Origin: Litorilinea aerophila
GTDB taxonomy: Bacteria > Chloroflexota > Anaerolineae > Caldilineales > Caldilineaceae
Assembly (NCBI GenBank): GCA_945897075.1
Contig: CAMDEX010000031.1
Coordinates: 1-35,024 of the forward strand
DNA: 35,024 nt
Direction: 5' to 3'
This document shows, piece after piece, positions 8,231-8,551 of this stretch. How positions within the stretch are numbered: position 1 is the first letter of the stretch; every line of letters starts with the position of its first letter. The translations under genes were made by a program, and so were the position numbers. Below the pieces are notes generated by a model. It was not told where the DNA came from, ran no database searches, and saw only the letters and a list, made by a program, of their open reading frames with translations.

Positions 8231-8259
8231 TTGACATTCCCCCCGCTCCGGTGTACTCT
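8231..8259 (+). promoter_or_regulatory. Sigma70-type promoter of the lysine cluster leader
   Basis: A perfect TTGACA (8231-8236) is followed by a 17-base spacer and TACTCT (8254-8259). The predicted start of transcription is about 8266, thirty bases before the leader ORF. No other good promoter is seen between here and homocitrate synthase. Confidence 0.7.
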
Positions 8260-8295
8260 CATTGCACTTTCCCGATTTTTTTTCGGAACAGAGCG

Positions 8296-8352
8296 ATGCC
8301 AGCCCAATTGTTTGTTGCCAAGAAAAAGAGCAAGAAGCAGAAACCCGACTGA
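8296..8352 (+). CDS. Lysine-rich leader peptide of the lysine biosynthesis attenuator
   Basis: An 18-codon ORF encodes MPAQLFVAKKKSKKQKPD. Six of eight consecutive codons (8320-8343) are lysine (AAG, AAA, AAG, AGC, AAG, AAG, CAG, AAA). GGA lies about nine bases upstream as a weak ribosome site. It sits between a sigma70-type promoter and a Rho-independent terminator, directly upstream of homocitrate synthase, the first enzyme of lysine synthesis. The arrangement is that of the classic amino-acid leader peptides (trp, his, thr): a ribosome starved for charged tRNA-Lys would stall on these codons. The product itself probably has no function beyond being translated. Too short for routine gene callers. 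Confidence 0.8.
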   Translation: MPAQLFVAKKKSKKQKPD

Positions 8353-8429
8353 TTCTGTCTGGGATTTTGAGTTTGCTTGCTGACAATGCAACGCAACCGG
8401 CCATCCAGACAGGATGCGCCGGTTTTTTT
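8341..8429 (+). promoter_or_regulatory. Transcription attenuator with alternative hairpins
   Basis: Three pairings compete. Segment 1 (AAACCCGAC, 8341-8349, the last leader codons) can pair with segment 2 (GTC-GGG-TTT within 8357-8367). Segment 2 as ATTCTGTCTGG (8352-8362) pairs with CCAGACAGGAT (8405-8415) over 11 contiguous base pairs with one G-U, forming the antiterminator. The terminator 8395-8424 uses the same 8402-8416 bases, so the two cannot coexist. A ribosome stalled on the lysine codons would leave segment 2 free (read-through); a ribosome reaching the stop codon at 8350-8352 would cover it (termination). I worked out these pairings by eye, without energy calculation. Confidence 0.75.
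8395..8429 (+). terminator. Rho-independent terminator of the lysine leader
   Basis: AACCGGC-CATCC (8395-8406) pairs with GGATG-GCCGGTT (8412-8424, with C8417 bulged) around the loop AGACA, giving a 12-bp stem followed by an uninterrupted T run to 8429. Confidence 0.85.
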
Positions 8430-8452
8430 GCGCCTTTTCTCTGGGGAAAAGT

Positions 8453-8534
8453 GATTAGAGATTAGGAGATTGGAGATTGTGAAATGTGCCAATCACCACT
8501 TAGTAATCTCCAATCTCCTAATCTCCCAATCTCT
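8453..8534. repeat. Intergenic palindrome, GAGATTAGGAGATTGG-word family
   Basis: The left arm (8453-8478) of iterated GATTAGA/GATTGGA words is mirrored by AATCTCCAATCTCCTAATC (from 8505). It lies between the attenuator and the homocitrate synthase ribosome site. Close copies are at 15900-15960 and 32813-32868. Confidence 0.8.
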
Positions 8535-8551
8535 ATCTTCCAGGAGACCGT

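Follow-up and report, generated by a model that had tools for sequence, protein, structure and literature searches.

In the enterobacterial trp, his, leu and thr attenuators, a leader open reading frame (ORF) containing regulatory codons is combined with RNA segments 1–4 and with a terminator and an antiterminator that exclude one another. The T-box is a single scaffold that a codon change retargets from one amino acid to another; it also acts through a terminator/antiterminator pair, and it binds tRNA directly. A lysine leader-peptide attenuator was reportedly described in Thermus thermophilus in 2005 by Tsubouchi and colleagues in J Biol Chem. The lysine cluster of that organism is reported to resemble the locus studied here in having a leader peptide with lysine codons and a terminator ahead of a LysW-pathway cluster, and lysine leader-peptide attenuation as such is therefore not new. 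The initial annotation of our locus knew of no established lysine leader-peptide attenuator in Chloroflexota; this agrees with our literature search, in which titles and abstract openings yielded nothing on a leader peptide in that phylum. In Actinobacteria, leader peptides have been predicted before amino-acid and tRNA-synthetase genes, according to one report (PMC1262725), and another (PMC2864571) lists a candidate structured RNA from a Chloroflexota species, the Chloroflexi-1 RNA motif (RF01698).

Here we describe an RNA element at 8317–8429 of a 35,024-nt stretch of Litorilinea aerophila DNA, the full length of which is referred to as the window; all features given below lie on its forward strand. 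We regard it as a probable lysine attenuator of classical mechanism, one member of a Chloroflexota scaffold that is conserved and likely to have been retargeted through the exchange of codons. We estimate a probability of roughly 90% that it works as a classical ribosome-mediated transcription attenuator sensing charged lysine tRNA and belongs to a codon-matched Chloroflexota RNA family. By sequence comparison, the leader, its stems, their co-variation and the match between codons and genes are established.

The first gene of the operon (8552–9724) encodes a homocitrate synthase (TIGR02146, 497 bits; cut-off, 413.55). Downstream lie the genes for the LysW carrier protein (15990–16175; TIGR01206, 76.4 bits; cut-off, 53.2), LysX (16075–17109; TIGR02144, 351.6 bits; cut-off, 275.6) and [LysW]-aminoadipate kinase (20187–21092; NF010659, 428 bits; cut-off, 223). 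The LysX ORF is listed from an upstream TTG, and its true start is probably further in. The operon also holds genes for a homoaconitase-type large subunit, a protein with an aconitase C-terminal domain and an argC-type reductase. Because homocitrate synthase, LysX, LysW and the kinase all score above the NCBIfam cut-offs, the operon encodes the LysW lysine route, and the first gene is the LysW-pathway homocitrate synthase that had been proposed from the DNA. Uma2-type and NUDIX genes are found at 9816–11124, between the homocitrate synthase and homoaconitase-type genes. Judged by homocitrate synthase, the closest named relatives bear such names as Caldilineaceae, Anaerolineae and Litorilinea aerophila (L135 and L175 being records of the last), which places the window in Chloroflexota. 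An AT-rich inverted-repeat element (GATTAGGAGATTGGAGATT...AATCTCCAATCTCC) occupies 8443–8545, between the terminator and the homocitrate synthase gene, and occurs again at 15893–15960; a DNA search listed 78 matches to it in the same genome (several sites being counted on both strands), which identifies it as a dispersed palindromic repeat.

The leader region begins with a promoter-type pair read directly from the DNA at 8231–8259, as the initial annotation had it: TTGACA (8231–8236), a 17-nt spacer and TACTCT (8254–8259), a weak −10 box that agrees with the consensus at 3 of 6 positions. A consensus scanner applied to 8100–8600 reported neither a promoter nor a terminator, and these missing calls stand against the folding and conservation evidence. 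Of the 14 loci listed, 6 carry TTGAC[AT]-17-TACTCT: the window copy itself and, among its near relatives, L004, L104, L105, L106 and L175, with TTGACT as the −35 variant in L106. Direct reading also bears out the leader peptide ORF (8296–8352), MPAQLFVAKKKSKKQKPD*, with 18 codons and a TGA stop at 8350–8352; its Shine–Dalgarno sequence appears weak by eye. Six of the eight codons at 8320–8343 (K K K S K K Q K) specify lysine, as first noted.

Sequence, folding and conservation define the RNA stems on and behind this ORF. The protector (1:2) structure has an inner and an outer stem. The inner stem, found by folding and containing the conserved CC[AG]GAC, pairs AAACCCGAC (8341–8349) with 8357–8367, with bulges; this is the segment 1:2 of the initial annotation, which was correct but incomplete in that it missed the outer stem. 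The latter pairs AGCAAG (8329–8334), within the lysine codons, with CTTGCT (8376–8381), on the evidence of folding, conservation and co-variation. Segment 2 (8352–8363), the 5′ arm of the antiterminator, shares the core GTCTGG (8357–8362) with the 3′ arm of the inner 1:2 stem. Its partner, segment 3 (TCCAGACAGGAT; 8404–8415), overlaps the 5′ arm, the loop and the beginning of the 3′ arm of the terminator; both arms of the antiterminator are supported by folding and by the duplex test described below. The Rho-independent terminator (8395–8429) consists of a stem (8395–8406/8412–8424, with one bulge) and a T tract; sequence and fold agree with its earlier description, including the bases shared with the antiterminator, and the stem shows compensatory changes in relatives. 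The entire element scores 80.9 bits with covariance model R1 and 71.0 bits with R2, the window copy being part of the training sets of both. The arrangement has the features of a trp-type attenuator: a leader ORF with an amino-acid codon run, a terminator before the first gene, an antiterminator that shares its bases, a 1:2 protector stem overlapping the leader ORF and a stop codon that places a terminating ribosome over segment 2.

The RNA from 8266 to 8440 folds with a z-score of −3.21, and none of 200 dinucleotide shuffles was equally stable. The free RNA folds into the long protector stem and the terminator, and the terminator (−25.8 kcal/mol) is also what is obtained when a ribosome occupies the stop codon. 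With a ribosome on the lysine codons, the nascent RNA instead adopts a 12-bp antiterminator (8352–8363 with 8404–8415; −26.0 kcal/mol), one base pair longer than the 8352–8362/8405–8415 pairing correctly given at the outset; with the A site on the last lysine codon it retains 8 bp (−19.6 kcal/mol). In the window RNA, the nascent antiterminator forms ahead of completion of the 3′ arm of the terminator. When the full-length RNA is folded with segment 1 covered, the terminator is still slightly favoured (−27.8 kcal/mol, compared with −26.0 kcal/mol when the nascent RNA is antiterminated); the switch would therefore have to operate kinetically.

These folds suggest the following course of events. 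Transcription would start just 3′ of 8259. With ample lysine, the ribosome would pass the lysine codons, reach the stop at 8350–8352 and cover segment 2 (8352–8363), and the terminator at 8395–8429 would then stop transcription ahead of homocitrate synthase. With scarce lysine, the ribosome would stall within 8320–8343 and open the protector stem that includes the lysine codons; segment 2 would be free to pair with 8404–8415 in the 12-bp antiterminator, and the LysW-pathway operon would be transcribed. If there were no translation, the protector stem would form and the terminator would win. It is thus very probable that, through the lysine-rich leader, the ribosome senses a shortage of lysine and switches transcription on; we infer both the response to lysine in vivo and the direction of control.

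Conservation of the leader was assessed upstream of homocitrate synthase, the comparison with relatives that the initial annotation had proposed. Homocitrate synthase was searched in 199 genomes of the class, 95 of which had a match at E ≤ 1e-100. From these genomes (96) and from named records (80), 176 upstream stretches, none longer than 700 nt, were collected, of which 157 were distinct and 154 were long enough for a scan for small ORFs with at least 3 lysine codons in 8 and a terminator within 140 nt of the stop. Such a leader and terminator were present in 64 of the 154 regions on the coding strand, compared with 3 of 154 on the reverse strand. At the stricter level of at least 4 lysines in 8 codons, the counts were 37 and 0. 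Other residues also reach four in eight (Arg in 22, Ala in 18 and Ser in 11 regions, compared with 37 for Lys), as expected in GC-rich DNA, and codon counts were therefore not used alone. The best promoter-like score upstream of 64 leaders averages 9.6 of 12, compared with 7.1 in mononucleotide shuffles. Related leader peptides vary in their N-terminal halves and are alike in the lysine run and the residues that follow, often K-S-K-K...P-D. The ORF and the stems, whose absence from close relatives had been named as evidence against an attenuator, are conserved.

The same scan detected no lysine leader in the remaining 90 of the 154 regions, and we infer that part of these sit within longer operons. 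Among the named records, 27 carry titles that place them in a group outside Chloroflexota, some of which may have been removed as duplicates before the scan; two passed it, L159 (Fimbriimonadia) and L172 (Planctomycetaceae). Three genomes of one genus in the family of the window (G038, G070 and G136) encode homocitrate synthase and have no R1 match at E ≤ 0.01; they are the R1-negative 3 of the 10 genomes searched in that family at this threshold. Attenuator control may have been lost or replaced in this genus.

Both alternative structures were then compared with alignments of related leaders. For the terminated structure, 82.2% of cells are paired in alignment A1 (50 leaders), with 71 changes on both sides of a pair compared with 30.3 in shuffles (0 of 500 shuffles reaching this value). 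In A2, an alignment of 103 R1-fitted matches and hence biased towards the structure to which its rows were fitted, 85.5% are paired and 285 cells are changed on both sides, compared with 97.4 in shuffles (0/500). For the antiterminator, 80.2% of A1 cells are paired and 16 are changed on both sides, compared with 8.4 in shuffles (1/500); other A1 measures are weaker (further pair types, 61/500; pairs changed on both sides, 14/500), and the core of the antiterminator is nearly invariant. Pairing partners were also exchanged between 48 representatives in a duplex test. Own partners gave stronger duplexes than swapped ones both in the antiterminator (z-score, −7.6) and in the outer protector stem (z-score, −6.8), and in neither case did any of 20,000 permutations reach the strength of own partners; among 18 stricter representatives, the antiterminator gave a z-score of −6.3. 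The choice of representatives thins kinship and does not eliminate it, and related sequences inflate shuffle tests. In the relatives, the outer stem GAGCAAG:CTTGCTC is conserved, as is CC[AG]GAC in the inner stem. The conserved and co-varying lysine run, protector stem, antiterminator and terminator together support the trp/his-type layout with lysine as the sensed amino acid, as originally read from the locus.

It is unlikely that the leader peptide exerts its control through translation or Rho instead of intrinsic termination, a mode suggested for certain leaders of Actinobacteria. In that phylum, the cys leaders have no conserved terminators, and Streptomyces ilvB departs from classical attenuation (PMC1262725). 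Here, by contrast, the hairpin is GC-rich, is followed by a T tract and co-varies, and the distance from terminator to gene ranges from about 25 to more than 340 nt across loci, which leaves the start region of the gene outside the structure.

A further test concerned the position of the leader stop codon, at which a terminating ribosome would cover segment 2 if the stop lay between −6 and +21 nt from the core. The frame richest in the expected amino acid stops in this zone in 64 of 67 leaders, whereas only 6 of 134 stops of the other two frames do so; the count covers 67 of 101 matches, 33 rows without an exact core and one tie being omitted. An earlier count of stop positions (132/143) was discarded because the choice of ORF had already demanded a stop near the core.

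R1 was trained exclusively on leaders upstream of homocitrate synthase. In the genome of the window, R1 gave one strong match, the window copy at 8317–8429 (80.9 bits), and across the class it matched 105 of the 199 genomes (E ≤ 0.01). Sixty stretches around these class-genome matches were taken, chosen mostly for not directly preceding homocitrate synthase; of the R1 and R2 survey matches, the retrieved stretches are those examined. Many R1 matches precede LysX and have lysine leaders, and a lysine leader is found in 20 of the 22 LysX-first lysine operons with a leader ORF. Those before argC or argG have arginine-rich leaders (for example, FRARRSPRHFPDHRSG), and those before proS, or before a metallophosphoesterase gene followed by proS, have proline-rich leaders (for example, RLPSPPVPESQT). 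The identity of these genes was verified on representatives (argC, 384.6 and 389.3 bits; argG, 636.5; proS, 604.1; LysX, 339.7–346). By eye, the outer stem varies with the codon run, from GAGCAAG:CTTGCTC in lysine forms to GAGCC...AGG:CCTGGGCTC before argC and GCCCAGC...:...GCTGGGC in proline forms, a pairing covered by the duplex test.

The match between codons and genes was assessed in 146 distinct matches, 143 of which have a leader ORF, by tallying lysine, arginine and proline over the 36 nt that lead up to the core. Of 79 leaders assigned to lysine genes, 75 had lysine as the commonest of the three; arginine was commonest in 25 of 27 before arginine genes and proline in 9 of 9 before proline genes; the single carA leader had lysine as its commonest residue, and 27 leader-ORF matches had no assigned gene, many of them from a short available stretch. 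Two of the 103 A2 rows (a reverse-strand match and a weak second match) had been removed before the counts, as had L280 and L298 (the same sites as L236 and L216) and one duplicate in the codon–gene count. With R1 training loci left out, the codons match the gene in 84 of 89 assigned leaders; 20,000 label permutations averaged 38.9 matches and never exceeded 56. R2, the model behind the survey of the phylum, had all three types in its training set, and the class subset found with R1 is therefore the cleaner test; in it, matches were seen for ArgC in 15/16, ArgG in 7/7, ProS or metallophosphoesterase in 7/7, LysX in 18/20 and homocitrate synthase in 1/1. The automatic choice of leader start occasionally selects a wrong ORF, and three of the five mismatches (L234, L265 and L293) look like such picks. 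The remaining exceptions are L226, with mixed lysine and arginine, and L303, an argC leader in the genome of the window with one arginine.

In the survey of the phylum, 70 of 400 genomes had an R2 match at E ≤ 0.001, some of them from families that do not belong to the class. The 45 distinct loci examined include 24 before homocitrate synthase and 6 before homoaconitase, with genes confirmed on representatives, and lysine was commonest in 29 of these 30 leaders. L303 (G000:C6:17215-17326; 38.5 bits) is the second R2 match in the genome of the window and is followed by a small gene and then an argC-type gene; sensing is doubtful because its leader, MNQNESCISQLRKSPEQ, carries a single arginine, and it is perhaps a decayed sensor.

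The scaffold matches include several further arrangements. Two same-strand matches no more than 500 nt apart occur in at least 11 of the 105 matched class genomes, and both serial copies have a lysine-codon leader in L010, L012, L045, L047, L272 and L274. Glutamine-rich leaders or codon stretches are present in L304, L308, L315, L319, L305 and L322; LysE-type translocator genes follow L304 and L308 (Pfam LysE) and L319 (by eye), and a histidine phosphatase gene follows L305 and, by eye, L322. L296, before a LysE-type gene, has lysine codons. Mixed arginine and lysine leaders precede argG and carA in L217 (VIRRRLTKKPD) and L218 (VIRRKLAKKPD).

These counts bear on two simpler accounts of the locus. 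One is that the hairpin is a real terminator of an upstream transcript and the lysine-rich ORF is there by chance. An ORF on the same strand (6718–8145) does end about 150 nt before the leader, and two hairpins right after ORF ends elsewhere in the genome, L185 (R1, 19.2 bits; R2, 28.8 bits) and L324 (R2, 26.2 bits), score weakly and were taken to be plain terminators. A third weak match, L184 (R1, 20.8 bits), seems by eye to lie inside an opposite-strand coding sequence; low-scoring R1 or R2 matches alone are therefore not evidence. A chance ORF is nevertheless extremely improbable, given the 3 of 154 in the reverse-strand control, codons conserved in frame, a protector stem and antiterminator that co-vary, the codon–gene match and the placement of the stop codon.

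The other account is that of a metabolite riboswitch that binds lysine or arginine, the small ORF being incidental. A structured leader conserved before amino-acid genes would fit it, and the L-box serves lysine genes elsewhere. However, the L-box (RF00168) was found in 0 of 199 class genomes by a search with stricter filters that can lose weak matches, and that was positive in 4 of 14 known genomes used as a control. At gathering score, the window has no Rfam match, the T-box and Chloroflexi-1 (RF01698) included, and 20 related loci gave two tRNAs alone and no T-box. The sub-gathering matches with the lowest E-values in the window fall on the inverted repeat (8441–8543), outside the leader. 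Moreover, the gene-dependent part is an in-frame codon run, and the RNA core is common to the lysine, arginine and proline forms, unlike what a binding pocket would lead one to expect. A riboswitch is accordingly very unlikely, and a ribosome-read attenuator is the best account of the locus.

Within the family, the core of CC[AG]GAC, GTCTGG and CCAGAC would stay fixed as the codon run and outer stem change together to fit lysine, arginine or proline genes. It is likely that a single ancestral Chloroflexota attenuator RNA, a ribosome-read counterpart of the T-box, was retargeted among lysine (homocitrate synthase, LysX and homoaconitase operons), arginine (argC and argG), proline (proS operons) and perhaps other amino acids by swapping the codon run and its protector-stem partner around this core, with lysine copies doubled in series in some genomes. 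Common ancestry of the three forms is drawn from the shared core, not from a tree. The family supplies naturally occurring variants of one attenuator, adjusted to three different amino acids; comparing them should show how codon run, protector stem and antiterminator depend on one another, and swapping codons would put those rules to the test. The covariance model can be used to annotate arginine, lysine and proline operons in uncultured Chloroflexota.

Among known systems, the leader of a plasmid-borne lysS in Deinococcus sp. NW-56 (MTALATASKKPTAPPG*), with its terminator, is similar in layout to the window element; it differs in having two lysine codons and, by eye, in lacking the CC[AG]GAC/GTCTGG/CCAGAC core. 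The Chloroflexota forms resemble the enterobacterial attenuators in their leader ORF, segments 1–4 and opposition of terminator and antiterminator, and differ from them in the amino acids that they would sense, lysine, arginine and proline; to our knowledge, no single conserved RNA core spans amino acids in the enterobacterial systems. With the T-box they share one scaffold retargeted by codon through a terminator and an antiterminator, but here the ribosome would read a translated codon run. The L-box is likewise a regulator of lysine genes, but it was not detected in this large bacterial class, which suggests the attenuator as a possible route for control of LysW lysine synthesis there. In contrast to the Chloroflexota scaffold, no RNA structure is reported as conserved for actinobacterial arginine or lysine operons (PMC1262725). 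As far as we have checked, what is new is one scaffold that is retargeted between amino acids through codon change.
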